Assembly (NCBI GenBank): GCA_031292555.1
Contig: JARLGV010000011.1
Location: 1-64,000, forward strand
Origin: Fimbriimonas sp.
Lineage (GTDB): Bacteria; Armatimonadota; Fimbriimonadia; Fimbriimonadales; Fimbriimonadaceae
Direction: 5' to 3'
DNA: 64,000 nt
In this document: positions 19,635 through 35,805 of the stretch, piece after piece
Position numbering within the stretch: position 1 is the first letter of the stretch
Layout of the letters: every line of letters starts with the position of its first letter
Position numbers and translations under genes: made by a program
The notes under the pieces: model-generated
Databases searched by the model: none
What the model saw: only the letters and a program-made list of their open reading frames with translations
What the model was told of the DNA's origin: nothing

Positions 19635-20627
19635 CTATTTGGAGTCTTGGGTCACGGTCGCGGATCCCGCATTTGGAAGTACGTCAATGCGCGCAAGACC
19701 TGCTCGAACGACCTCCCCATGCACGACTCTCTTGCCTTGCACGATACGGATCTGATCCCAATTCACGGGAACCGAGATCTCGACGGTAAGCGGCTGGTCG
19801 TATAGTGCGGCAACGGAGCAGCCAAACGTCTCCAGTTTCGTTCGATCGCACATTACGGACACGCTGACCATGCTCGATCCCGTGCGTTTGACGACGGGTT
19901 GTTCGGCCGCTTCACGCTCGACGACGTACTTGTAGATGTCGATATTCGGCGCGATCCAAAGTGCGGGCCGATGCGCAACCATGAAATCGAGCAGATGCGT
20001 TAGCGTCGGCAAGCTTGTACTGAGCCACTCGCCCCCTGCGCCGTGCATCGAAACGTTGCTCCAGGCATGAGTGTCGATCGCCTTCTGGACGTAGCTCACC
20101 GGGTCGGTCTTCTGTTCATCGAAGAAGTTCCGTCGATCAGCGAGCACGAGTCGGTACTTCTCGAGGACCTTCGCCAATTGCTCCGGCGTGAAACCCCAAG
20201 GCACTCCGCCGGGGATGGCGAACGAAGTCAGGCGCGGACGGGCGCCCAGGACTCGATCCAGTTGGGCAGAGCAAAGGCCGATCTCTTTGTCCAGTTCCTC
20301 GATCGTCTTGGCGCCCGAGTGGTGAGCGGTGTGGTTACCCAGCTCGTGGCCGGCTTTTGGAACGTCTACTTCCCACTCATGACGATGGGACTTGTATTGC
20401 CCACTCTCCGTGTTTACAAAGAACGTCGCATGGATCCCGCGTGCGTTGAGCAGCGGAATCGCGTTTGCGAGTTGGGATGTCATGGAGTCGTCGAACTGAA
20501 GCGAAACCGCCGCCTCGGCACCACCCAAGAACCGGCAGATCCCAGGAACACCCGGCTCGCGAGCCGATCCTTGCGTCAAGCAGGTCCCCAATGCCACGAA
20601 AAAAACTGCGGTTGCGAGTTGTATCAT
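19635..20627 (-). CDS. Secreted polysaccharide deacetylase (NodB-type)
   Basis: The 330-residue protein has a signal peptide (MIQLATAVFFVALGTCLTQ). The NodB motif 1 is present as VSLQFDDSM with catalytic and metal aspartates. Motif 2 is HELGNHTAHH, supplying the H-x3-H metal site. A beta-strand domain follows the barrel. The family removes N- or O-acetyl groups from polysaccharides such as chitin, xylan or peptidoglycan; the substrate here is unknown. ATG 20627 is chosen because it starts the signal peptide; the open frame runs to 20780 without one. It is divergent from the GH-A hydrolase. Confidence 0.88.
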   Translation of the reverse strand: MIQLATAVFFVALGTCLTQGSAREPGVPGICRFLGGAEAAVSLQFDDSMTSQLANAIPLLNARGIHATFFVNTESGQYKSHRHEWEVDVPKAGHELGNHTAHHSGAKTIEELDKEIGLCSAQLDRVLGARPRLTSFAIPGGVPWGFTPEQLAKVLEKYRLVLADRRNFFDEQKTDPVSYVQKAIDTHAWSNVSMHGAGGEWLSTSLPTLTHLLDFMVAHRPALWIAPNIDIYKYVVEREAAEQPVVKRTGSSMVSVSVMCDRTKLETFGCSVAALYDQPLTVEISVPVNWDQIRIVQGKRVVHGEVVRAGLARIDVLPNAGSATVTQDSK

Positions 20628-20716
20628 TGCCAAGCTCGAATACAGCCTGTTATAGCATGGGCCGGGCGTCATTCCTGGCGGACGGAACATCGGAGACGCT
20701 TCGAGGACTATCCTAT

Positions 20717-20737
20717 GGGCTACCCGCGGGTAAGCCC
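20717..20737. promoter_or_regulatory. 21-bp inverted repeat just before a hydrolase start
   Basis: GGGCT-ACCCGCGGGT-A-AGCCC contains a perfect 10-bp palindrome ACCCGCGGGT with outer GGGCT/AGCCC arms, ending 11 bp before ATG 20749. It could be an operator or an RNA hairpin; no nearby regulator gene is evident. Confidence 0.45.
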
Positions 20738-20748
20738 GCACCACAATC

Positions 20749-22020
20749 ATGATGCTACTCGCGACTCTCTTGGCACTCATTGCCGGTCAGAAGCCTGCGA
20801 TGCAGGACTTCATTGGGCTCAACGTACACACAGTGCTCTTCAAGCCTGATCTCTACCGGCCAGTGTCGTCGGTCGTGCGCGACTACCACGCGATCGACTG
20901 GGATCTTGGCCAGAGCCCAAACAACCCGGCGACCTTTCCAATGTCGAGAAACGGGGTGAACTGGCTAGATCTCTATGGCGGATGGGGAAAACACGGGTAC
21001 CGCATCGATGTGACGGTTCAGTTCGACCGGCTTCCTCCCAATCTTTGGACGCCCCAAAATGAGTCCGCGTATGGCGAGGCCTTTGCCAAATACTTCGGAC
21101 CGTCGCACGGTCAGGGCCTTGTCGATTCCATCGAAATTGGAAACGAGCCGAGCGAGTTCAGCGAGACGCAGTATCGGTTGATGTTTGAAAACATGGCTAG
21201 GGGTGTCCGGAAGGCTGACCCCAAGGTCAAGATCGCCACATGCGCCGTCGCGGTCGGGAAGCAGGACAAGTATTCGAAGGACATCGCGTGCCTCGCGGGG
21301 CTGGAGTCGCTGATCGACATCGTCAATGTCCACACCTATGCGTTCGCCGAGGCCTATCCGACTTGGAGACGGAGTTACCCCGAGGACCCGAAGATCGCCT
21401 ATCTGAAGCAGGTTACCGATATCATTCGATGGCGGAACGCTCATATTCCCGGAAAACCGGTATGGGTGACCGAATTCGGCTACGACTCCACAACCAAGCC
21501 GAACAAGCCGACCGGCGATTTCGCCAAATGGGTAGGCAATTCGGATCTTGAGCAGGCCGAATACATCGTGAGATCATATCTCGTGTTCTCGGCAATGGAA
21601 GTCGAGAGGGCGTACCTGTTCTTCTTCAACGACAGCGACGACCCCCAACTGCATGGTTCATCGGGCCTAACCCGAAACTACCAGCCCAAACCTGCATTCT
21701 ATGCGGTCGCTCACCTACAAAAAACTCTCGGAGGCTACCGATTCGAAAGAGCCGTCCTCGAACGGCCGAACGACATCTACCTGTATCAGTACCGTGGGAA
21801 AACCCACTCAAACGAGATCGTCTGGGTGGCATGGTCACCCACTGGCTCTAATCGGTCCGTCGAAGCGGTTCTTCCCAATCCGCAAGGAACAATCATTAGC
21901 GCCGAGCGCATGCCGCTCTCACCAAGCGCACCCGAAACCGTTCCGGTCCAGCGAGACGCCGATGGCCAGCTACGCCTGACGATTTCTGAGCGTCCCGTCT
22001 TTTTGTCCGTTCGGCAATAA
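20749..22020 (+). CDS. Secreted clan GH-A glycoside hydrolase (GH39-like)
   Basis: The 423-residue protein has a short signal peptide (MLLATLLALIAG) and a TIM-barrel with the two clan GH-A glutamates: E133 in SIEIGNEPSEF (acid/base) and E242 in VWVTEFGYDS (nucleophile). The downstream YLFFFNDS and a beta-rich C-terminal domain resemble GH39 and related families. The exact family is not certain. The ATG at 20749 is followed directly by another ATG at 20752. It is divergent from the deacetylase and stands alone. Confidence 0.78.
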   Translation: MMLLATLLALIAGQKPAMQDFIGLNVHTVLFKPDLYRPVSSVVRDYHAIDWDLGQSPNNPATFPMSRNGVNWLDLYGGWGKHGYRIDVTVQFDRLPPNLWTPQNESAYGEAFAKYFGPSHGQGLVDSIEIGNEPSEFSETQYRLMFENMARGVRKADPKVKIATCAVAVGKQDKYSKDIACLAGLESLIDIVNVHTYAFAEAYPTWRRSYPEDPKIAYLKQVTDIIRWRNAHIPGKPVWVTEFGYDSTTKPNKPTGDFAKWVGNSDLEQAEYIVRSYLVFSAMEVERAYLFFFNDSDDPQLHGSSGLTRNYQPKPAFYAVAHLQKTLGGYRFERAVLERPNDIYLYQYRGKTHSNEIVWVAWSPTGSNRSVEAVLPNPQGTIISAERMPLSPSAPETVPVQRDADGQLRLTISERPVFLSVRQ

Positions 22021-22455
22021 CCGCTCCCGCGTGTTCCAACGGAGTGCATGGGCCCAAGGGGAGTACGTCGACATGTGTTTGGGCATCATGAACCGCCTTG
22101 AGGTTCTACGTCCGTGATTTGGACTCTCGCCGATCCCTGATCACGTGACATAGCAGTTGGGACCGGCAGGTAAGCCAGTCCCAATCTGGATGGGGTTGGG
22201 AGTCTTCAACCCAGATCTGTACGAAAGTCGATGGCCCTATCGTCGCTAGGCGCCTTTATGAGATTCACAACCTACGATTGCAGCGATGCGGATTTGGACT
22301 GCCGTTGTAACGTGATGTTTTCGGACCGGAGTCAGGTCGCGGCAGGTGTTCCGGAGAACGCGATTCGTTCAAGCGAGGCAGACGCAATACCCGTCAGGTT
22401 CCATTGCCTAGCGACACATCGGTCCCACGTAGCGTAGACTGAGACACAAACAACC
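22021..22455. other. 435-bp intergenic region with two tandem hairpins
   Basis: No convincing gene. TTGGGAC (22157-22163) pairs with GTCCCAA (22178-22184), with an inner GGC/GCC. Directly after, ATCTGG...GTTG pairs with CAACCCAGAT around 22185-22220. No T tract follows either. They could be a terminator for the upstream hydrolase or part of a structured leader for the URO-D gene. Confidence 0.4.
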
Positions 22456-23403
22456 GTGAACAAACGAGAGGCTCTTCTACGGTATTTGGAGGGTGACCGA
22501 GTCGGCGAGTACACACCGGCGGCCTTCTTCCTCCACTTTGGCGACGACTACAAGCTCGGCGAGGCCGCAATCCAGAGGCACAAGGAGTTCTTCGCGGCAA
22601 CCGACATGGATTTTGTGAAGATCCAGTTTGAGTTGGGCGTCCCTCAGCTTGAGATCTCGCGTGACACCGACTTCGAGCGCATACCCTACCTGCCTCTCGT
22701 GTACTACAAGCCGCAGCTCGAAGTTGTGAAAGGCTTGGTCACTGCGCTGAAGTCTGAAGCGCACGTCGTACTCACTCTGTACTCCCCATTCATGCTTCTG
22801 GGCAATATGGTCGGTCGGCAGATTTTGATCGACCATATGGAACGGAGCCCGGAGATGGTGTTCCGAGCGCTAGAGACGGTTACGGAGAGCCTCTTGGAAT
22901 TCGTGCGTGAGTGCGTCCGAATTGGACTAGACGGCTTCTATCACTCGACGCAAGGGGGCGAAAGCCACCGCTTTATGGATCCGGACATCTTCCAGCACTG
23001 GATCAAGCCGACCGATCACTTGGTGATGAACGAGATCGATGAAACCTGCAATTTCAACATCCTTCACATCTGCGACTATCACCAGGAATTCGGCGGTTAC
23101 AACGACTTGAGCCCATTCGTGGACTATCCCGGCACCGTCGTCAACGTCTCTACCGAGATCGGCGGCGCGAGCGTCGCTCCATCCTATCTTTCGCAGTTCT
23201 TCGAGCGCCCCTATATGGGCGGTCTAAATCGGCTCGGGGTTTTGGCCAACGGTACCGAAGCAGAGGCGCGAGCCGCCGCAAGAAAGGTGCTCGATCAGGC
23301 GCCACCGAGGTTTATCCTTGGAGCCGATTGCACGGTGCCGCCTACGACTCCTTGGTCTAACCTCAGAGCGGCCGTCGACGAAGCTCATGGGATCCGCCCT
23401 TAG
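22456..23403 (+). CDS. URO-D superfamily protein 3
   Basis: The 315-residue protein starts at GTG with NKREALLRYLEGDRVGEYTP, a typical URO-D-superfamily opening. It keeps FNILHICDYH, the H-x-C position, and ends FILGADCTVPPTTPWSNLRA. It is more distant from the other two copies and lacks their TQ.TLPFGTP segment. A demethylase or methyltransferase role is plausible for the superfamily; the substrate is unknown. It is isolated, with long intergenic stretches on both sides. Confidence 0.82.
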   Translation: MNKREALLRYLEGDRVGEYTPAAFFLHFGDDYKLGEAAIQRHKEFFAATDMDFVKIQFELGVPQLEISRDTDFERIPYLPLVYYKPQLEVVKGLVTALKSEAHVVLTLYSPFMLLGNMVGRQILIDHMERSPEMVFRALETVTESLLEFVRECVRIGLDGFYHSTQGGESHRFMDPDIFQHWIKPTDHLVMNEIDETCNFNILHICDYHQEFGGYNDLSPFVDYPGTVVNVSTEIGGASVAPSYLSQFFERPYMGGLNRLGVLANGTEAEARAAARKVLDQAPPRFILGADCTVPPTTPWSNLRAAVDEAHGIRP

Positions 23404-23826
23404 TCGCTGCAGAGGCGATAGAAGGGATGGTAGCCAACCGGTGGATCAAGGCTAGCTGAACACTTGGATGCCCCTACTTCGATATCGCCGAAGATCGGGC
23501 CGGTATTGGAATAGTCGTGCGCTGCCGCCAAGGAGGGCCGAAGGCGACTGGTTGAGGATAAAACGGTTAAACCTCACGATCGAGGCAGATTTCCTGCAAT
23601 CGAATGAGCCTCGTCCCCGTCTTATCAAACAGGTGTGTCAAGCGCATAGAATGCCCGGTCTTCACATTAGGATGATGGGGAGTGTCTGGGGGCGTCGCGG
23701 GACTGCGATGATTCATATTTGCGTTCTGGGGCCGAATCACACTAAAATGAAGCGTCACCTATGGATGGGTGATCGGAAAGAGGTTGGACGTGTCTAACCC
23801 ATCGCTATCAAGCAAGGAATGCGCAA
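23404..23826. other. 423-bp intergenic region
   Basis: No gene supported. A short frame just after the URO-D stop (23403-23456) encodes AEAIEGMVANRWIKAS, faintly like the C-terminal ETLEALVTEGWVKAS of the halogenase-like protein; it may be a chance match. GGTTGGACGTGTCTAACC (about 23782-23799) is an imperfect inverted repeat ahead of the next gene. Confidence 0.35.
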
Positions 23827-24381
23827 ATGATACAACAAGCTCATATCGAACCAGCCCCGCGCTGTTGCTGCCCCCGTTGCGGCAGCTCTGAGATCTCCAC
23901 GATGTCTGAGTTGGGCGATTTGGTGTCGACACCCTCCTACCAGTTTTCGTCCGATTTGGCGGAATGGCTCTCCGCTCCACAGAGCCCGGACCGTCCCGTT
24001 TCAAGCCGCCGTCGGGTTGCCGCGCGAAACAGCGTTGCTTTTGGCGTCACTTCGATGATCGTTTTCACGATTGCGTTCTTCGCCTTAACCGGTTATCCTC
24101 CCACGTTGCCATTCGTACTTCTTGAAGTAGCGATTGCCATTACGATCGGCGCCCGCACATGGAGAACCGAATCGAGGATTGCCGCCACCGAGGATTCGCT
24201 CCTCATGGAGACTCACGTCGAGCGATATCGCTCGTACCTGCATCGACGCCGGGTGTGGTCTCGTCTTCGTTACTGTTTCAAATGCGCGATGGTCGTCGAT
24301 CCGGCAACGCTTCAATCGGCGTCGCTCTTCGACATCCACGAACTGGCCAATCGACGGTTTACCGAGGTGAGTCTCAAATAA
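23827..24381 (+). CDS. Zinc-ribbon membrane protein heading the BcsB-like/NfrB-like operon
   Basis: The 184-residue protein has an N-terminal CCPRCG pair and a C-terminal YCFKC that could form a zinc ribbon. Between them are two hydrophobic segments (about 75-95 and 98-112) and basic flanks. AAGGA lies upstream of ATG 23827. It ends eight bases before the BcsB-like start, so the genes are probably co-transcribed. No family was recognised; a structural or regulatory role in exopolysaccharide synthesis is inferred from position only. Confidence 0.65.
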   Translation: MIQQAHIEPAPRCCCPRCGSSEISTMSELGDLVSTPSYQFSSDLAEWLSAPQSPDRPVSSRRRVAARNSVAFGVTSMIVFTIAFFALTGYPPTLPFVLLEVAIAITIGARTWRTESRIAATEDSLLMETHVERYRSYLHRRRVWSRLRYCFKCAMVVDPATLQSASLFDIHELANRRFTEVSLK

Positions 24382-24389
24382 AACGGTGC

Positions 24390-26336
24390 ATGGCAGCTTT
24401 GTGGTTAGGAGCGATTGCGGCAACTGGATCGGCAACCGACATCCAGATACACCCGATCCTTAGCGACAAAGCCGTCCATTCGAACAGCGACCGATGGCGC
24501 TATTTCTTCGAACTCCCTCACGGGGTCAACGTATCGAAGGATGGTTCGTTCTCTCTAGAATACGACACATCGCCCACGATGACGGGTGTGCGGGCGAACA
24601 TGACTGTTCTACTTAACGGCGTGCCCATCGACTCCGTCACGCTACAGCCCGAAGGAAAGACCGCGTTCCACTGGGAGGTCCCGCTTCCCGCCGCCAACTT
24701 CAAGGAAGGTTTCAACGAACTCACGGTAGCCACCCGTAGCCGGACGGTAGACGGGCCTTGCCTTGAAGACGACGATCTGCGGAACTGGGTAAAGTTCCGA
24801 GCGACGTCACTTATATCGTTTCACTTGGCTGATATGGATAGATTTCCGTTGTCAGCCTATCCGTATCCCTATATCAACGGGCTATCTCAGCCGGCTACCA
24901 GTACGCCGATCGTCCTTGGACCCGCTGCAGGGGACACAACGTTCTCTGCCGCATTCAACCTTGCGGCCAGTTGGGGCAGGAGGTTGACGGAGAAGCCGCT
25001 GATCGTCCAGGTGACTCGATCCCAAGTGACCGGTCAAGCCGTCCACCTAGGACTTCGAAAGGAACTCGCCAACCCCAAACAGAAGCTCTCGATTGAGGTT
25101 CATGACAGCGGAATGTGGATCACAGGGTTTAGCCCCGCACGGCTGGACGCTGCCGTCAATACGCTGAACTATCCCGAAGTGACCGCCCAGATGAAGGGAT
25201 TTGCCGCTCCTGCGCTGGATTACACTCCTCCACCCCAATCGGTCGAGACCCGACTCGGAATCACCAACTTCGACGAACTTGGCTACTCGGCGATCAACCT
25301 CACCGGGATCGGAACCCAAAGCACTACCATCGTCTTGCGCCGCCCGCTCCTGCTTCAGTTGGGACGGGGCGTCCAACTCAGGCTTCACTTCCGGCATGCC
25401 GCGACGTTGGTGAATACGCGCTCTCTCCTTGCCGTCACGATCAACAATCAGTACATCGGCAGCGTCGCGCTCACTCCGGAAAACGCCAACGACGGCACGA
25501 TGGTCTGCACGGTGCCGATCAACCTGGTCGATAGCAACGAGTGGAGCATCATGATTACGGCGCATAACGATATCGCCAATGTCGACTGCTCGAAAAACTA
25601 CGACGACGTCGCCTGGACCACCATCCTGGGCTCTTCCGAATTCGAGCTTCGCGAAGGTTCTCTTCCGAGTCTTCCTTATCTGGAAGGCTTTCCCTACGTC
25701 CGTAACCGCGAGGGCAAGCTCCCTCAGAAACTAACCGTCGGCCTTGGCCCCCATCCAAGCGACGCCGAACTCTCGTTTGTGGCGGCCACCGCCGCGCTTG
25801 CCGCCCAATCGAACCACGGCACACCCACCTGGGTCGCTTCGACCGGCGACACGACCGGGAACGAGGACTTGATCATCGGTCGCTTGAATGACGACAAGCG
25901 CTTCAAGGGAATCATGGACACGTTCGGGGTTAAGCCCACCTCCAACGGCGTCCCGGAAGTGATCAAGGACCTTCCCATCCTCGCTTCGACCTTGGTCGAT
26001 TCAGTCGTGGTTCAGGCGGTTCACAAACCATCGGGCGGCGTCGGTTACGTTGTCTTGGCCGCCTCCGACCAAGCCCTCAACCGATTCACCGCCTTTCTCG
26101 CCGACCCCAAATCGGAAGGCGCCCTTCGCGGTCAGGTTGCGGTGTTCTCGGTTGGTGGAGACCTTTACACATTCGACATGCTTTCACAACCCGAACGGCG
26201 CGTCGACGAGAAATCCGAGATGCAGCGATACAAGCCGGAAATGAAGATCGGGATGACTTCGTTCCTGGTCTGCCTCGGCCTCGTCGCGATTTACATCGGC
26301 AGCAAATTCGTGAAACGGAAGCATCCCAAGAAATAG
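24390..26336 (+). CDS. BcsB-like periplasmic polysaccharide synthase subunit
   Basis: The 648-residue protein starts with a short signal-like region (AALWLGAIAATGSATD). It has the alternating beta-sandwich and flavodoxin-like layout of cellulose synthase regulatory subunit BcsB, including MTVLLNGVPIDSV in the first sandwich domain, a second sandwich with LLAVTINNQYIGSV, and a single C-terminal transmembrane helix (SFLVCLGLVAIYIGSKF) followed by lysines. BcsB guides the glucan chain and is anchored by that helix beside BcsA. Here the partner is an NfrB-like glycosyltransferase 10 bp downstream, not a standard BcsA. ATG 24390 is chosen because the long upstream frame overlaps the preceding gene. 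Confidence 0.75.
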   Translation: MAALWLGAIAATGSATDIQIHPILSDKAVHSNSDRWRYFFELPHGVNVSKDGSFSLEYDTSPTMTGVRANMTVLLNGVPIDSVTLQPEGKTAFHWEVPLPAANFKEGFNELTVATRSRTVDGPCLEDDDLRNWVKFRATSLISFHLADMDRFPLSAYPYPYINGLSQPATSTPIVLGPAAGDTTFSAAFNLAASWGRRLTEKPLIVQVTRSQVTGQAVHLGLRKELANPKQKLSIEVHDSGMWITGFSPARLDAAVNTLNYPEVTAQMKGFAAPALDYTPPPQSVETRLGITNFDELGYSAINLTGIGTQSTTIVLRRPLLLQLGRGVQLRLHFRHAATLVNTRSLLAVTINNQYIGSVALTPENANDGTMVCTVPINLVDSNEWSIMITAHNDIANVDCSKNYDDVAWTTILGSSEFELREGSLPSLPYLEGFPYVRNREGKLPQKLTVGLGPHPSDAELSFVAATAALAAQSNHGTPTWVASTGDTTGNEDLIIGRLNDDKRFKGIMDTFGVKPTSNGVPEVIKDLPILASTLVDSVVVQAVHKPSGGVGYVVLAASDQALNRFTAFLADPKSEGALRGQVAVFSVGGDLYTFDMLSQPERRVDEKSEMQRYKPEMKIGMTSFLVCLGLVAIYIGSKFVKRKHPKK

Positions 26337-26346
26337 CAGAGATCCG

Positions 26347-28380
26347 ATGAGACTGGACGAATACGACTGGCTGCTGATGCTGAGGGATTTCTTCTCCGGC
26401 CTCACGTGGATCGTCGCGGTCGTCTTCTTTCTCAGCGGCTCCCAAGACCTCGTCTATGACGTCGGCGCCTACTGGCTCCGGTTCTGGCGTCAGTTCACGT
26501 ATCGCAGGAAACCTAGGCTTACTCTCGAGCGCCTTAGGGCACGCGAGCAGCAGCGTATCGCGGTGATGGTTCCGGCCTGGAACGAGGGAGAAGTTGTCGC
26601 CAGCATGGTCGACAACATCATCAAGCGCGTCGAATACGACAATTATTCCATTTTCGTGGGGACCTATCCAAACGATCCGGCCACTCAGGCATGCGTTGAT
26701 CGCCTATCCAAGGACTATCCCCAGATCATCAAGGTCGTCACCGCCCGACCCGGCCCAACGACTAAGGCGGACTGCCTTCAGAACGTCCTCGCGGCGATTC
26801 GCGCCAAAGAAGAGGCGGAGCTTATCAACTACGACATCATCCTCATGCACGACGCGGAGGACTGGGTGCATCCCCAGGAGTTCCTGGTGCACAACTACTT
26901 GATCCCCCAGATCGACGTCGTTCAGTTGCCGATTCTCCCGTTCCCTGCCAAATGGAATAAGTGGGTGCACTGGATTTACGCAGACGAGTTCAGCGAGAAC
27001 CACATGAAGGATGTGCCGGTTCGAGAGAAGATCTCGGGCTTCGTACCCTATGCGGGCACCGGAACCGGCTTTTCGCGCAAGGTCATCGAGTTCCTTGCCG
27101 ATGAATTCGACGGACAGGTTTTCAACGAAACGTCGATGACCGAGGATTACTCGATGTCGAAGAAGATCCGGGAAGCCGGTATGAAGTCGGCGTTCGTGAA
27201 TGTCGTCCTTGGCGACGACGACTCGCCCTGGTGGAAGCCCCTCTACAAGCGACCGATGTTCATCTCGAATTGGTCGTACTTCCCGATGGATTGGACTCGC
27301 TCGGTCCGCCAGAAGTCGCGCTGGATCATCGGAATTTCCTTGCAGGAATGGGAGCAGACCGGATGGGTCGGCAACTGGCTCATGAAGGAGAACTTCGTCA
27401 AGGACCGCAAGGTCTTCGTTGCGGCGTCGGCGTCATTCTTGGGCTACCTGGTTCTCATCTACAATATCGTATTCGTGCTGGGCTACTTCCACCTGGTGCC
27501 TTTCCAACTGCTTCCAACCCTTGTCGCCGGCGAGCCGCTAGCCAACCTTGTCTCCTTCTGCACGTTCTACATGCTGTTGCGGATCACTCAGCGCATCACC
27601 TGGGTGGGGCTGACCTACGGGCTCGGTCCTGGCCTGCTCTCAGTGCCGCGCCTTATCGTCGGAAACATCATAAACGGCCTCGCCTCATTCCGCGCCCTGA
27701 AAGTATTTGCCGATTCGCGAAGCGGCAAGGCTACGGTGCGGTGGGACAACACCACGCATCTGGAAGGAATCGGCGATATGGGCGGAGTTGAGCCGGTTCG
27801 GACCAAAGTCGAGGTCCAGTTCGTTCCGATCGAAGAGATCGTGACCGGTCTGACGTCAGAAGAACCAGAAGCGATCGTCAAGGCACTCCGCGTAGTTCCC
27901 GCTACTCCCCTAGACACAGAACGGGCAGAACTTATCGCCTACATGCGCTCGCTCGTATCTCACCGCGAACTCAAGGTGCGGGCAGCGCTTGCCCAGACGA
28001 TGGGGCGCGTTCAGTGGCCCGAACTAAACCCCACGCTCTTCCACGCTTTGAGCGACACCGACTCGGTCGTGTTGCTGAACGCCGCACGCGCACTTCTGGA
28101 CCTCCCGAAAGGTGCCGCCATGATCGAGCAGGCGTTTTCAGTAGCAACGCCCAAGACGGTTGACGCGCTGATTCGCGTGATTGAACAGGACCGTCGGCGT
28201 CAGCGCCGGGTCTTTCATATGATCGACCAAGAGGAACTGCTCGTCACGAAGGCAAGTATTCTGGCCGGCTCGCAGATATTGCGCAAGAGGTACGCGACAT
28301 TCCTCGACGAGAAGTTGCTGCCAGACAAGGTTGCCGCGTCGCACTTACGCCTAGAGAACGTCCAACCGGACGCTCTCTAG
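26347..28380 (+). CDS. NfrB-like membrane glycosyltransferase (GT2) with HEAT-like tail
   Basis: The 677-residue protein has an N-terminal membrane helix (about 13-35) and a GT2 domain: VMVPAWNEGEVV, the DxD-type HDAEDWVHP, the acceptor motif MTEDYSM and RQKSRW (Q-x-x-R-W class). Several membrane helices follow (about 360-440). This order matches NfrB, the phage N4 adsorption protein B family. The last 170 residues read as HEAT-like helical pairs (LVSHRELKVRAALAQTMG; ALSDTDSVVLLNAARALL). No PilZ or MshEN c-di-GMP domain was seen. It probably polymerises and exports a surface polysaccharide with the BcsB-like protein. Confidence 0.82.
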   Translation: MRLDEYDWLLMLRDFFSGLTWIVAVVFFLSGSQDLVYDVGAYWLRFWRQFTYRRKPRLTLERLRAREQQRIAVMVPAWNEGEVVASMVDNIIKRVEYDNYSIFVGTYPNDPATQACVDRLSKDYPQIIKVVTARPGPTTKADCLQNVLAAIRAKEEAELINYDIILMHDAEDWVHPQEFLVHNYLIPQIDVVQLPILPFPAKWNKWVHWIYADEFSENHMKDVPVREKISGFVPYAGTGTGFSRKVIEFLADEFDGQVFNETSMTEDYSMSKKIREAGMKSAFVNVVLGDDDSPWWKPLYKRPMFISNWSYFPMDWTRSVRQKSRWIIGISLQEWEQTGWVGNWLMKENFVKDRKVFVAASASFLGYLVLIYNIVFVLGYFHLVPFQLLPTLVAGEPLANLVSFCTFYMLLRITQRITWVGLTYGLGPGLLSVPRLIVGNIINGLASFRALKVFADSRSGKATVRWDNTTHLEGIGDMGGVEPVRTKVEVQFVPIEEIVTGLTSEEPEAIVKALRVVPATPLDTERAELIAYMRSLVSHRELKVRAALAQTMGRVQWPELNPTLFHALSDTDSVVLLNAARALLDLPKGAAMIEQAFSVATPKTVDALIRVIEQDRRRQRRVFHMIDQEELLVTKASILAGSQILRKRYATFLDEKLLPDKVAASHLRLENVQPDAL

Positions 28381-28404
28381 ACGAACCGTTGGAACGGAAG
28401 CCTC

Positions 28405-31400
28405 CTATCGGATGACCCAGAACGCCCCGCCCGATGACCCGACGTATATCTTCCCGTCGGCTCCAATCGAAGGAGAGCTCTGCCCATACGTGTTTCCAGT
28501 TAAGAAACGCCATTTCATCTTCCCGGCCGCATTCACCGCGTACAAGTTACTGTCCTGCGATTGCACGTAGATCGTTCCATCCGAACCGATCGCCGGCGAC
28601 GACCGGATGATATCGTGGGTAGTGAAATTCCAGAGACCTGCTCCCGCTGCGCTGACCGCATAGAGATTCCCGTCGTTCGATCCGATATAGACAGTGCCGT
28701 CGGTTCCGACCGCAGGAGACGAAACGACAATGTCGCCAAGGGTCATTGCCCAGCTTTGCGAACCCGTTGGAGTAATCGCGTAGAGGTTGGAGTCTAATGA
28801 GCCAACGTAGATCGTTCCGTCCGGACCGACCGCCGGGCTCGACCGAACGCTGTTTCCGGTCTTGAACGCCCACTTCTTGGCGCCCGTCGGGCTGAGAGCA
28901 TACAGATTGCCATCATCGGAGCCCACGTAGATCGTGCCGTCGCTTCCTATCGCCGCCGAAGAGTAACCGTTCGTGGTGCTGCCTGTTACATACGTCCATT
29001 TCTTCGCGCCACCGCCAGTCAGCGCATAGACGATTCCGCCAAACGACTGGACGTAGATTGTGCCGTCAGGAGCGATCGTGGGCGACGCATATACCGGACT
29101 TCCCGTCGCGAACGACCACTGCTTGGAGCCGTCAGGATTCAAGGCGTAGACCGAGCCGTCCGTCGATCCGAAATAGACGGTACCGTCGGCGCCGAGCGCC
29201 GCAGAGGAATCTACTTCGCCACCGGTCTGGAATTGCCATTTGACAGAGCCGTCAGGATTGGCTGCCGTAAATTTCTTCCCGCCGCCCCCAATGTAGATCG
29301 TGCCGTCTCCGCCCAGAACTGGCGACGCGAAGATAGGGCTACCGGTGCTCAGTTGCCAGTTCTGATGGCCGGTCGCATCGATATCGTAGAGATTCCCGTC
29401 GTCTGAGCCGAAGTTGATCATGCCGTTGGGGCCGATCGTTGGGGAAGACTCGACGTAGCTTCCGGTCTGAAATACCCACTTCTGGGTCCCGTTGGGGTTC
29501 ACGGCATACAGGTTGTCGTCGATGCATCCGACGTAGATCGTGCCGTCCGAACCGATCGTCGCCGTTGATTTTCCAATTTGATCACCGGTCTGGAACTGCC
29601 ATTTCAGGGTGCCATTCGGGTTTAGCGCATACAGCTCGTTGGTCCATGCGCCCACGTAGATCGTTCCGTCGGATCCGATGATCGGAGACGAGTCGACACC
29701 ACCGGCGGCTTGGTACTTCCATTTCTGCGATCCCGTGGAGTCGATCGCATAGAGGTAGCCATCGCCGGATCCCACATAAATCGTGCCGTCCGAACCGATC
29801 GCCGGTGTTGAATCGATGTAGTTCGTTGCAGAAAAGCTCCACTTCAAGGTTCCGGTCGAGTTGATCGCATAGAGTCTTCCGTCTCGGGCGCCTATGTAAA
29901 TGGTTCCGTCCGGCGCCAGCGTCGGCGATGAGTGGATATGCGCTCCGATCGTGTACGACCACTTCTTCGTGCCGGCAGAATTGACCGCGTAAAGGTTGCC
30001 GTCGTCCGATCCCACATAGATGGTCCCGTCCGATCCGATCGCCGGCGACGAATCCACTTGGTCGCCTGTCTTGAACGACCACTTCTTCGTCCCGGACGGC
30101 AAGAGCGCATAGAGATTGCCATCGCCCGAACCAACGTATATCACGTTTCCAGCGCCAATCGCCGGGTTCGATTGGATCGCGCCGTTCGTCGCGAATTGCC
30201 AGACCGCTTGGCCGGAAGAGTTAACTTCTCCAACCACTCCACCTCCGGTCCCGGCGACCAAGGCTCCGCTCGAAGTGTAGGCGACCTTCGTGCTGATGTT
30301 GCCGCCACCACCAACCCATGATAGTTGGCCAAGTGCTCCGGCGCCGGTTCCGCTCCCCGTGTTCTTTGCGTTCGCGCGGAATTTGGGCCAAGGCGTTGTC
30401 GCCAATCCAGTTGCATGGGGAGTCACCGTCAAGGTCGCTTTGACGACTGTGCCGGATGGCGATTTCGCCGAGATATTCGCCACCACCGAGCCGCTGATCG
30501 CCGCAGTGGAGATCGTGAATGTCGCCGTGGATGAACCTCCGGCGACCGTGGCCGAGCTCGGCACGGTCACCGCGGTTTGATCGGAGGTCAGCCCGCACTT
30601 CATGCCGGCGGTGGGCGCAATGCCGCTAAGGATCAGTGTCCCTACCGCCGTCGTTCCGCCCACGACCGATGCCGGTGAGATCGTAAGGCTCGTGAGGGTC
30701 ACGGGATTGATTGTTAGGGTCACGGCAATCGATGTCGATCCGGCAGATGCCGTGATTTTGGCTGGAGTGGACGAAGTAACGGCTTTCGTAGTGATCGAGA
30801 ACGTTGCCGACGACGTCCCGCCTGGAACCGTGACGGTCGCCGGCGCGGCAGCCGAGGTCGAACTCGACTTGAGGGTCACCTTAAAGCCGGCGGGCGGCGC
30901 ATTTCCGCCAAGTGTCAATGTGCCAACCGAGGACTTGCCTCCTGTAACACTCGTGGGAGCGATCGTGAACAAGGTGAGGGCGATCGGCTTTACGGTAAGG
31001 ACCGCCGTCACCTTCGCTCCGCCCAGCGATGCCGTGATCGTGATCTTCGTCGATGCGGTGACGGACCCTGTCACAAAGCTCATTGTTGCCACTTTCGAGC
31101 CGGCCGGTACAGTTACCGATCCGGGGCCACCCCATGCCGGTGACGTCGACGTGAAAGTCACTTTGCTGCCACCCGATGGAGCAGCCGAGCTGATATTGAC
31201 GGTTCCAGTTACCGATCCTCCCTCTTGAACGCTTGTCGGCGAAAGGGACAGGCTCGTAACCTTAGGCGGCTGGATCGAAAGGGATGACGTGACCGAACTC
31301 TTCCCCAGAGTCGCCTTGATCTTGGCCGCCGTCACAGCGGGTACTGCCGTCGTGGTGACCGTAAACGTCGTGCTCGATTGTCCGCCCGCAACCGTGACGG

Positions 31401-31614
31401 AAGAAGGCAGGCTTGCGGCAGTGCTGCTCGAGGCGAGTGCGACCACGATTCCCGAGCTGCCGGCCTTTGCCGAAAGCGTCACTGTTCCCTTCGAGCTTGC
31501 CCCTCCCTGAAGCGACGCCGGCGAAAGCGCCAATTTCGACACGGACTGTGCCGATGCCATCGACGCGACACAAAGAACCCATAGGGCGATACCAATTTTG
31601 AGAACCGATTTCAT
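28405..31614 (-). CDS. Second secreted Ig-like plus 16-repeat propeller protein
   Basis: The 1069-residue protein has a signal peptide ending SMASAQS. Four Ig-like repeats (about residues 24-400; each with SPTSV.GG.S..GT) come next, then the linker TTPWPKFRANAKNTGS. Sixteen propeller repeats of 38-42 residues follow, mostly GTIYVGSDDGNLYAVN.TG, with a last repeat ending GAFWVIR. Architecture, repeat number and linker match the 5792-9007 protein, so they are paralogues, though the repeats here are more uniform. It converges on the exopolysaccharide operon with 24 bp between stops. A role in surface binding is inferred. Confidence 0.86.
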   Translation of the reverse strand: MKSVLKIGIALWVLCVASMASAQSVSKLALSPASLQGGASSKGTVTLSAKAGSSGIVVALASSSTAASLPSSVTVAGGQSSTTFTVTTTAVPAVTAAKIKATLGKSSVTSSLSIQPPKVTSLSLSPTSVQEGGSVTGTVNISSAAPSGGSKVTFTSTSPAWGGPGSVTVPAGSKVATMSFVTGSVTASTKITITASLGGAKVTAVLTVKPIALTLFTIAPTSVTGGKSSVGTLTLGGNAPPAGFKVTLKSSSTSAAAPATVTVPGGTSSATFSITTKAVTSSTPAKITASAGSTSIAVTLTINPVTLTSLTISPASVVGGTTAVGTLILSGIAPTAGMKCGLTSDQTAVTVPSSATVAGGSSTATFTISTAAISGSVVANISAKSPSGTVVKATLTVTPHATGLATTPWPKFRANAKNTGSGTGAGALGQLSWVGGGGNISTKVAYTSSGALVAGTGGGVVGEVNSSGQAVWQFATNGAIQSNPAIGAGNVIYVGSGDGNLYALLPSGTKKWSFKTGDQVDSSPAIGSDGTIYVGSDDGNLYAVNSAGTKKWSYTIGAHIHSSPTLAPDGTIYIGARDGRLYAINSTGTLKWSFSATNYIDSTPAIGSDGTIYVGSGDGYLYAIDSTGSQKWKYQAAGGVDSSPIIGSDGTIYVGAWTNELYALNPNGTLKWQFQTGDQIGKSTATIGSDGTIYVGCIDDNLYAVNPNGTQKWVFQTGSYVESSPTIGPNGMINFGSDDGNLYDIDATGHQNWQLSTGSPIFASPVLGGDGTIYIGGGGKKFTAANPDGSVKWQFQTGGEVDSSAALGADGTVYFGSTDGSVYALNPDGSKQWSFATGSPVYASPTIAPDGTIYVQSFGGIVYALTGGGAKKWTYVTGSTTNGYSSAAIGSDGTIYVGSDDGNLYALSPTGAKKWAFKTGNSVRSSPAVGPDGTIYVGSLDSNLYAITPTGSQSWAMTLGDIVVSSPAVGTDGTVYIGSNDGNLYAVSAAGAGLWNFTTHDIIRSSPAIGSDGTIYVQSQDSNLYAVNAAGKMKWRFLTGNTYGQSSPSIGADGKIYVGSSGGAFWVIR

Positions 31615-31819
31615 GGCAAAACCAAAACCTATCTGCAGACTTTAGCGATTCTATCACCCTAACCAATCGTGAGAGGAACCTCTTGATGGCTATGGACCAT
31701 CGGCAGCGAAAACTTGCTGATGAACAAAACGCACTCGCCAGCGGCACGAGGCCGATTCTCGATCGAAAGGAGTCGTTTCGCTCGACATTCCTGGCGAGTG
31801 TGTCCAGAATAGGCTAACC

Positions 31820-32851
31820 ATGTCGAAGTTGAGAATTGGTTTTGTCGGGGTGGGCAATATGGGCCAGGCTGCCCACTTGAGGAACTACGCGACCCTGCCG
31901 GAGTGTGAGGTCGTTGCCCTCGCCGAGGTCCGCCCGAAACTCGGTCAGGAGGTGGCTCGTCGCTACGGTATTCATCACGTCTATACGAGCCATCGTGAGA
32001 TGTTGGAGAAAGAAGCGCTCGACGGCGTAGTCGCCATCCAGCAGTTCCAAAACCACATCGCGCTCATTCCCGATCTCCTGGCTTACGGCGTGCCGATCAT
32101 GACGGAGAAACCGCTCGCCGATACCGTGGCCCATGGAAGGGCGATTCTCGAGAGTGCCCGAGTGTCCAGTGCGCCGGTCTACCATGCCTACCACAAGCGC
32201 AGCGATCCGGCGATCGCATTCGCGAAGGGCAAGATCGAGGAGTGGACAGCCTCAGGCGACTTCGGTCCAATGCGCTATGTTCGGATCACGATGCCGCCCG
32301 GCGACTGGGCGCGCGAAGGCTTTGCGTCGAATATCCGAACCGATGAGTCGTACGACGGACTGTCGGTAGAGTGGGACCTTTATATCAAGTTTGTCAATTA
32401 CTACATCCATCAGGTCAACCTCATGCGGTTCTTGCTTGGGGAGGATTACGAGGTCCTGTTCGCCGATCCAGGGTCGATTACTTTGGCGACGCGCAGCACG
32501 TCCGGCGTGTCCGGGCTCATCGAAATGGCGCCCTATGAAACGACCCTTGCCTGGCAGGAGTCGGTACTCGTCGCCTTCCAAAAAGGGTGGATCAAAGTTG
32601 ATCTTCCCGCCCCGATGACCCTCGACGAGCCGGGCGCTGTAATCGTATTCGAGGATCCGGGTGGCGGAGCGACGGCAAAGGAATCCCGGCCCTCGCTTCC
32701 ACATATCCATGCCATGCGTGCGCAAGCACAACACTTCCTAAGGGCGATACGCGGGGAAGCCCATCCCTTGTGCGGCGCGGAGGATGCGTTCAAAGACCTC
32801 TTGGTCGCTCAAGCCTACGTGGACCTGTTCGAAGGCAAGGCGAGGGCTTAG
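31820..32851 (+). CDS. Gfo/Idh/MocA family oxidoreductase
   Basis: The 343-residue protein has an N-terminal Rossmann motif (FVGVGNMGQAAH) and the family EKP motif (TEKPLADT, about residue 96-99). The C-terminal alpha/beta domain includes HAYHKRSDPA and a histidine in YYIHQVNLMRF consistent with the catalytic region. These NAD(P)-dependent enzymes oxidise sugars, inositols or their derivatives; the substrate is not predictable here. Its stop lies two bases before the FG-GAP protein start, so they are coupled. Confidence 0.9.
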   Translation: MSKLRIGFVGVGNMGQAAHLRNYATLPECEVVALAEVRPKLGQEVARRYGIHHVYTSHREMLEKEALDGVVAIQQFQNHIALIPDLLAYGVPIMTEKPLADTVAHGRAILESARVSSAPVYHAYHKRSDPAIAFAKGKIEEWTASGDFGPMRYVRITMPPGDWAREGFASNIRTDESYDGLSVEWDLYIKFVNYYIHQVNLMRFLLGEDYEVLFADPGSITLATRSTSGVSGLIEMAPYETTLAWQESVLVAFQKGWIKVDLPAPMTLDEPGAVIVFEDPGGGATAKESRPSLPHIHAMRAQAQHFLRAIRGEAHPLCGAEDAFKDLLVAQAYVDLFEGKARA

Positions 32852-33939: not shown

Positions 33940-35805
33940 ATGGCATCCTCACCAAGCGACCTGTTTGCCAAAGCCACCCGGGCGAATGCCGCCGGGAAAC
34001 TTGACGAAGCCATCCAAGCGCTTCACCAGCTTCTCGCCCAATCGCCTTCGAACACGGAGGCGATGCTCCTATACGCGATCGTTCATTTCCGGACGAACGA
34101 CATAACTACGTCTTGCGAAACGCTCCAGCAAGTGGTTCAACTGGACCCTCATTCCAGTGATGCGTGCTTCTGGCTATCGGCGTCACTGAGGAAGTTGGGC
34201 CGGTCGTTCGAGGCCCTCGACTGGGCCAAGCGTGCACTGGAACTCGGTCAACCGGCCGAGCATGCATTGAATCAGGTGGGAATGTGCCTGCTCGACCTTG
34301 ACAAGGGCGACCAGGCAGTTTCGGTGTTTCAGCAAGCGCTCGAGAAGTCGCCCAACGCGGGCCCGATCCTTGAGAACCTTGGCCGGGCACTCCAATCCGT
34401 CGGCCGCTACCAAGAGGCGGTCCGCGCCTATCGCCGGGCGATTTCGGTCGGGCCGATGCGCGCCGGGCTTCTCTTGCGTCTCGGCGACGCATATTTGCTC
34501 GCGTCGAACGCTCAGGGCGCCGTCCAAACGGCACAGTCGGTGCTGCAGATGGAGCCAGACTCCGCAGCGGGAAACCTCCTGATGGCGCGTGCGCTGATCG
34601 AGGACGGAAGGGGCGCTCAAGCGCTTCCGTACTCGAAGCGTGCGGCCGAACTGGAGCCCGAAAGCTCCATCGCTGCATCCTATCACGGTCGTGCGCTGCA
34701 AAGCTCAGGGAAACTCGTCGGGGCCGACGAGATGTTTCGTCGCTCGATCGAACTGGAGCCGCATCAGGGATTCGCCTATCACGCCCTGATCCACAATCGG
34801 AAGGTTACCGATCTGGAACGCCCCCTCATCCGCGATATGGACGGCCTTTGCCGCGACCCAGAGATGGGTTCAGCCCACAAGCTGCTCCTCCATTACGCAC
34901 TTGGAAAGGCGCTCGAAGACCTGGGGCAGTTCGAACCGGCGATGGGACACTACGATGAAGCGAACCGTATCGATCACGCGCTCAAGGCTGGGAGGGTCGA
35001 GTTCTCTAAAGACCGCATCGTGGAGACCACCGACTTTCTCATCGAGACGTTTACGAGAGAGTTTCTCGACCGAAATCTGGGTGTTGGCTTTACGAACGAG
35101 CTTCCGATATTCGTCGTTGGCATGATGCGGTCAGGCACGACACTCGCCGAGCAGATCCTGTCGAGCCACTCGAAGATTGGCGGGGTGGGTGAGCAGATCT
35201 TCTGGTCGGACAATGCTGGAACCCGCGAGAAAGTGTTCAACGGCGCCGACGCGGTCGACACTCAGCGCATCGCCAAGCTATGCCGCACGTATCTGAACCG
35301 ACTGGAAACAATGGCGCCTGGCTTTGCCCGCGTCGTGGACAAACTTCCGACGAACTATCTGCTTCTAGGCGTGCTACGTCTCGCTCTACCCAATGCGCGC
35401 ATCATTCACATGCGGCGACACCCCGTGGACACATGCATTTCGATCTGGGCGAATCCCCTTACGCCTGAGTTAACGTTCGGCGGGGATAGGGCAAACCTGG
35501 TGAGCGCCTATCTCGAATATCTTCGGCTGATGTCCCATTGGCGAACAGTGCTGCCCGCCGATCGCCTGTTCGAAGTTCATTATGAAGATTTGGTTTACGA
35601 TCAGGAGCGGTGGTCGCGCAATATGATCGAGTTTTGCGGATTGGAATGGGAGGAAGCGTGCCTGCGGCCGCAGGACAACCCGAACACAGTGCGAACCCCA
35701 AGCGTCTGGCAAGTTCGCCAGCCGATCTATCGAACTTCTACTGAACGCTGGCGGAAGTTCGAAACGTGCCTCGGCGCGTTTTCCGAACTGATGGATATCG
35801 TGTAG
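33940..35805 (+). CDS. TPR-sulfotransferase fusion protein
   Basis: The first 340 or so residues of the 621-residue protein are tetratricopeptide repeats (for example LENLGRALQSVGRYQEAVRAY). The C-terminal 240 are a PAPS-dependent sulfotransferase. The 5'-phosphosulfate loop is GMMRSGTTLAEQIL near residue 394, and the 3'-phosphate motif is RRHPVDTCIS. A conserved end VWQVRQPIYRTSTERWRKF is also present. This TPR fusion is a known bacterial architecture. The acceptor could be a protein, a lipid or a glycan. It starts 27 bp after the FG-GAP gene and may be in the same transcript. Confidence 0.88.
   Translation: MASSPSDLFAKATRANAAGKLDEAIQALHQLLAQSPSNTEAMLLYAIVHFRTNDITTSCETLQQVVQLDPHSSDACFWLSASLRKLGRSFEALDWAKRALELGQPAEHALNQVGMCLLDLDKGDQAVSVFQQALEKSPNAGPILENLGRALQSVGRYQEAVRAYRRAISVGPMRAGLLLRLGDAYLLASNAQGAVQTAQSVLQMEPDSAAGNLLMARALIEDGRGAQALPYSKRAAELEPESSIAASYHGRALQSSGKLVGADEMFRRSIELEPHQGFAYHALIHNRKVTDLERPLIRDMDGLCRDPEMGSAHKLLLHYALGKALEDLGQFEPAMGHYDEANRIDHALKAGRVEFSKDRIVETTDFLIETFTREFLDRNLGVGFTNELPIFVVGMMRSGTTLAEQILSSHSKIGGVGEQIFWSDNAGTREKVFNGADAVDTQRIAKLCRTYLNRLETMAPGFARVVDKLPTNYLLLGVLRLALPNARIIHMRRHPVDTCISIWANPLTPELTFGGDRANLVSAYLEYLRLMSHWRTVLPADRLFEVHYEDLVYDQERWSRNMIEFCGLEWEEACLRPQDNPNTVRTPSVWQVRQPIYRTSTERWRKFETCLGAFSELMDIV

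Follow-up and report, generated by a model that had tools for sequence, protein, structure and literature searches.

The glycosyltransferase encoded at the end of a three-gene set in Fimbriimonas sp. is an NfrB-type enzyme that carries a HEAT domain in the place of the MshEN domain of NfrB, and it is encoded directly behind a BcsB-like gene. From its domains, its intact catalytic motifs and its conserved neighbours we infer, with a probability of about 0.6, that the set specifies an inner-membrane exopolysaccharide synthase whose cytoplasmic tail is a protein-docking module. The genes occupy the interval 23827-28380 on the + strand of the window (the whole stretch of DNA that was analysed, 64,000 nucleotides), where ORF1, the BcsB-like gene and the glycosyltransferase gene follow each other in tight series:

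23827-24381, + strand: ORF1, 184 aa, with two predicted TM helices, a long helix and a CxxC pair at each end
24390-26336, + strand: BcsB-like periplasmic subunit, 648 aa, with a Pfam BcsB match of 4.5e-36 over residues 37-475
26347-28380, + strand: NfrB-type family-2 glycosyltransferase, 677 aa, with NCBIfam matches to PRK15489 (3e-132) and NfrB (2e-122)
26347-27765, + strand: catalytic and membrane core of the glycosyltransferase, residues 1-473, with the motifs HDAED, TED, QKSRW and WDNTTH
27829-28347, + strand: C-terminal HEAT domain of the glycosyltransferase, residues 495-667, all-helical, in the place of MshEN

All three open reading frames are real, conserved genes. The intergenic gaps are 8 bases (ORF1 and BcsB-like gene) and 10 bases (BcsB-like gene and glycosyltransferase gene), and they are also short in close relatives (23 and 11 bases at locus L054, 32 and 4 bases at L056) and longer in more distant paralogues. 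Since the short gaps recur in the close relatives, one transcription unit fits the arrangement. The start of the BcsB-like gene is most likely at 24390 and not at 24159, the first ATG of the open frame. The focal genome contains three paralogous synthase loci, and a complete genome of the same genus has two copies of the synthase. The Rfam search of the region 20000-32000 of the window showed no match to a c-di-GMP riboswitch.

We also recorded the genes around the set. Divergent polysaccharide deacetylase-like and glycoside hydrolase-like genes lie upstream (19635-22020 of the window) and are not kept at the other loci. On the - strand, 28408-31614 encodes a secreted protein of 1069 aa that combines N-terminal repeats with a long PQQ-type beta-propeller. 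Of the nine loci in the closest synthase clade, six have a relative of this propeller protein nearby. The genome has N-terminal repeats like those of the 1069-aa protein at other places too (L049), so the linkage with the synthase may be due to chance. Further downstream, 33940-35802 encodes a TPR protein fused to a sulfotransferase domain, and a 42% identical homologue lies near the synthase locus L056 (15814-17667).

The glycosyltransferase showed 39% identity to E. coli NfrB over residues 7-502, in agreement with the initial annotation, which had recognised a BcsB-type subunit and an NfrB-type synthase in one set. Its scores are under the NCBIfam equivalog cut-offs, with 442 bits against 537 for PRK15489 and 410 bits against 1170 for NfrB. 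A motif table of 29 proteins showed that the catalytic motifs HDAED, TED and QxxRW are intact in the enzyme of the window, and that the HEAT-tailed relatives examined have the same catalytic motifs, the first of them with conservative changes in some proteins. The closing motif of the core, WDNTTH, is at residue 466; the pattern W-D-K/N-T-x-H after the last membrane helix is common to the HEAT-tailed enzymes and 10 NfrB relatives of Pseudomonadota, with WAKTxH in two. The structural model of the glycosyltransferase (mean pLDDT 80.7) resembles BcsA and the hyaluronan synthases, with Z scores of 19-22 in an alignment of residues 8-482, a range that is approximately the core and leaves the HEAT tail outside; the rows of the structural alignment ran from residue 8 to 478.

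By analogy with NfrB, the substrate would probably be a HexNAc such as UDP-ManNAc. The genome contains two Epimerase_2 genes, the family expected for a UDP-GlcNAc 2-epimerase (WecB), both on other contigs. No NfrA_C match was found in the focal genome, with a positive E. coli control, and no recurrent export gene was found across the synthase loci. The second paralogue clade has five loci, and at three of them dTDP-rhamnose-type genes lie directly downstream in convergent orientation (L057, 6330-8863, annotated by Pfam; L058, 11669-14196, and L059, 6533-9047, with the same families), which is a possible hint to the sugar.

The tail of the glycosyltransferase was matched by HEAT_2 at 9e-7 over residues 536-620, and residues 495-667 were modelled as a series of helices with pLDDT of about 90 over most of the length. 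The Pfam scan of 20 armatimonad relatives found HEAT_2 in all 20 and, at E 0.1, neither MshEN nor PilZ in any of them. The same scan detected MshEN in the positive controls (3.8e-14 in E. coli NfrB, 2e-13 in the Thalassospira protein and 6e-10 in the Burkholderia protein), and the absence of MshEN from the HEAT-tailed enzymes is therefore meaningful. A profile built from ten HEAT tails matched designed alphaRep HEAT proteins (1.9e-24) and also natural HEAT proteins, for example PP2A subunit A. The profile of six NfrB tails matched MshE, PilB and PilF (2e-50 to 2e-11), with values of about 1e-21 to 1e-23 for MshE and PilB, and the two tail profiles did not match each other (hhalign probability 0.4%). 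A hidden MshEN domain in the tail is ruled out by Pfam on the 20 members, by the profile-profile comparison and by a PDB profile search. The initial annotation had proposed a HEAT-like tail in the position of MshEN and a set without a c-di-GMP domain, and both points were borne out: none of the three proteins contains a known domain of this kind.

The tail evolves faster than the core, with identities among close paralogues of 46-64% for the tail versus 83-93% for the core. In a maximum-likelihood tree of the core, the HEAT-tailed enzymes were split from those of Pseudomonadota with support of 100. As they form one clade, a single exchange event, in either direction, explains the data. Among other NfrB-type enzymes, one of Sphingomonas stops right after the WDKTxH motif (L074, 6953-8323) and one of Variovorax has a short tail of no known domain (L154, 5980-7668). 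Judging from such sequences, tails of the NfrB family appear to have been lost or exchanged repeatedly. We found no published description of an NfrB-type enzyme with a HEAT tail in the open-access literature.

Synthase-dependent exopolysaccharides are usually switched on by the second messenger c-di-GMP. PilZ was found neither in the focal genome nor in its four congeners with the system, so that the genome shows no BcsA with PilZ of the kind that the initial annotation had allowed for outside the window. Four of the 11 enzyme-bearing genomes do encode PilZ proteins, none of them on a contig bearing a synthase locus. The focal genome encodes four GGDEF proteins with intact motifs, three of them with an I-site, and c-di-GMP is thus probably made. 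It also encodes five MshEN domains elsewhere, one of them in a small stand-alone protein of about 160 aa that has no ATPase domain (L049, 6544-7029). No GGDEF, PilZ or MshEN genes were recognised in the inspected flanks of the synthase loci. The direct c-di-GMP switch has likely been lost on the HEAT-tailed enzyme.

The BcsB-like protein scored 124.8 bits against a Pfam gathering score of 21 and has a C-terminal membrane anchor near residues 620-641; Pfam BcsB also matched 12 of 12 relatives. The HEAT-tailed enzyme was found in 11 of the 291 Armatimonadota genomes searched, a lineage of little-studied soil and lake bacteria. A scan of genome contigs gave matches in six close relatives only. 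The enzyme had no match in about a hundred further genomes, apparently outside Armatimonadota, and its confinement to this phylum applies within these two sets of genomes. Ten of the 11 enzyme-bearing genomes had a convincing BcsB, compared with none of the 280 others (Fisher p about 1e-17, or 3e-15 when three weak matches of 51-65 residues in genomes outside the 11 are counted), a p-value that overstates independence because the genomes are related.

BcsB is directly upstream of the enzyme at 14 of the 20 loci where the upstream side is visible. At three loci (L052, L053 and L055) ORF1 adjoins the enzyme without BcsB, and at three loci of a second family (f20) neither BcsB nor ORF1 is adjacent. 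In two of the three f20 genomes BcsB is on another contig and is followed by histidine kinase and receiver-domain genes. At L137 (2465-9277, - strand), and also at L138, the genes after BcsB encode a PAS histidine kinase, a receiver protein and a hybrid receiver-GAF-PAS kinase. The neighbours of BcsB in f20 suggest a phosphorelay input. At L050 (7442-9520) the BcsB homologue is split into two open reading frames of 503 and 171 aa, which may be due to a frameshift, decay or an assembly error.

ORF1 had been described as a zinc-ribbon membrane protein ahead of the pair, and its homologues agree with this description. Four cysteines, C15, C18, C150 and C153 (C15xxC18 and C150xxC153), are invariant in 11 of 11 homologues, and two membrane helices are predicted by hydropathy at about residues 70-88 and 91-109. 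The zinc ribbon is putative and is proposed from the conserved CxxC pairs. The model of ORF1 has a pLDDT of 82.7; the profile search showed no family above cut-off and the structure search no significant fold match. All 11 loci at which ORF1 adjoins the enzyme or the accompanying BcsB belong to the genus of the window, and ORF1 was not found at the HEAT-tailed loci of the sister genus or of the second family. With many HEAT-tailed loci lacking ORF1, it is not a general partner of the tail, and the role of universal tail partner is ruled out for it. In other members of the phylum, distant ORF1 homologues lack a recognised synthase gene as neighbour. From its linkage, ORF1 is a plausible candidate for a synthase partner.

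We compared the set with known systems. NfrB is a c-di-GMP-activated synthase with a proposed ManNAc-based glycan as its product, and MshEN was found in 1,705 of 1,841 NfrB homologues, so that exceptions are on record (PMC8669469). The enzyme of the window shares its catalytic motifs and the closing WDKTxH with E. coli NfrB of the NfrBA-YbcH system, the synthase of the N4 glycan receptor. However, it has HEAT and not MshEN, the adjacent gene is BcsB and not NfrA, and there is no NfrA in the genome. The initial annotation had pointed to the BcsB-NfrB pairing, which did not turn out to be special when neighbours and papers were surveyed. For Achromobacter, a 2021 paper described an nfrA-nfrB-wecB cluster that includes a BcsB homologue (PMC8669472). 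The PGR locus of Acinetobacter, which includes the degenerate cyclase PgrA, has homologues of BcsB and NfrB side by side, and phage adsorption to a surface glycan requires the BcsB homologue (PMC12507263). In the plasmid collection, NfrB-type genes of Paraburkholderia, Variovorax, Pseudomonas and Nitratireductor are immediately preceded by BcsB. With these pairs in Pseudomonadota, the pairing is of an already known kind; what is new is the exchange of MshEN and HEAT, together with the putative zinc-ribbon partner in one genus.

The wecB-bcsB-nfrB(-nfrA) clusters of Pseudomonadota likewise have a BcsB gene beside the NfrB-type gene, directly upstream where inspected. However, in the inspected clusters the tail is MshEN or MshEN-like, or short in Variovorax, and HEAT occurs in none of them; they carry a linked wecB and most of them a linked nfrA, and both links are absent here. 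The BcsAB cellulose synthase has a BcsB family member and a similar synthase fold (Z about 20), but its partner here is NfrB-type and not BcsA, and the genome has no PilZ. The ydaJKLMN operon of Bacillus subtilis combines a BcsB-type protein with a GT2 lacking PilZ, and the Pfam BcsB profile matches in B. subtilis. That operon encodes the c-di-GMP receptor YdaK, whereas the set here has no recognised c-di-GMP receptor gene.

In the mechanism that we propose, the glycosyltransferase would polymerise a nucleotide-sugar and thread the chain through its own membrane part, and the membrane-anchored BcsB-like protein would take the chain in the periplasm. The HEAT tail would follow the interface helices on the cytoplasmic side, at the position of the MshEN switch in NfrB, and would most likely dock a protein and thereby gate or place the enzyme. 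A candidate partner of the tail in one genus is the split-zinc-ribbon membrane protein encoded in the operon. If the enzyme were instead a single-sugar transferase acting on a lipid or cell-envelope glycan, BcsB would have been recruited as a generic carbohydrate-binding subunit; the single-addition GT2 enzymes GtrB and PcManGT are indeed also among the fold matches. We consider this very improbable, as QxxRW is the signature of processive glycosyltransferases. It is further opposed by the genetic ties of NfrB relatives to surface polysaccharide (PMC8669469, PMC8669472) and by the need for the BcsB of an NfrB-type locus in making a phage-binding glycan (PMC12507263).

For the control of the synthase, we infer with the initial annotation that the tail-bearing enzyme may respond to protein contacts rather than to c-di-GMP. 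The change from MshEN to HEAT may then be a rewiring from second-messenger to protein control, with the signal coming from the zinc-ribbon protein and, in the second family, from the phosphorelay behind bcsB, and we put forward this extended proposal only tentatively. HEAT domains are general scaffolds, and the tail could be purely structural, so that it arranges several synthases, fixes the BcsB-synthase stoichiometry or localises the enzyme without regulating catalysis. The fast divergence of the tail fits such a passive scaffold as well as it fits a changing partner, but the tail follows immediately on the conserved WDKTxH linker, which is exactly the position of an allosteric domain, and we hold the structural explanation to be possible but doubtful. 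It is also unlikely that the synthase still answers to c-di-GMP, whether the HEAT tail itself has an unrecognised binding site or docks a separate receptor (a degenerate GGDEF or stand-alone MshEN protein). The intact GGDEF proteins and the stand-alone MshEN-like protein of the genome would allow this, and in Bacillus ydaJKLMN the PilZ-free enzyme has the receptor YdaK. A precedent is the BgsA glycosyltransferase, whose C-terminal domain binds c-di-GMP though no profile predicts it (PMC5567048), and the related Acinetobacter locus encodes the degenerate cyclase PgrA (PMC12507263). However, the inspected flanks are free of recognised genes for such receptors, and the tail is unrelated to MshEN even in profile comparison.

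The genome paper of Fimbriimonas ginsengisoli described a visible capsule and no complete EPS cluster (PMC4072686), and the HEAT-tailed synthase system is a candidate for this capsule. A rewiring to protein control, if true, would be a form of post-translational control not described for the NfrB-type synthase family. The clean exchange of a switch domain on a conserved synthase is a natural experiment on the gating of such enzymes.
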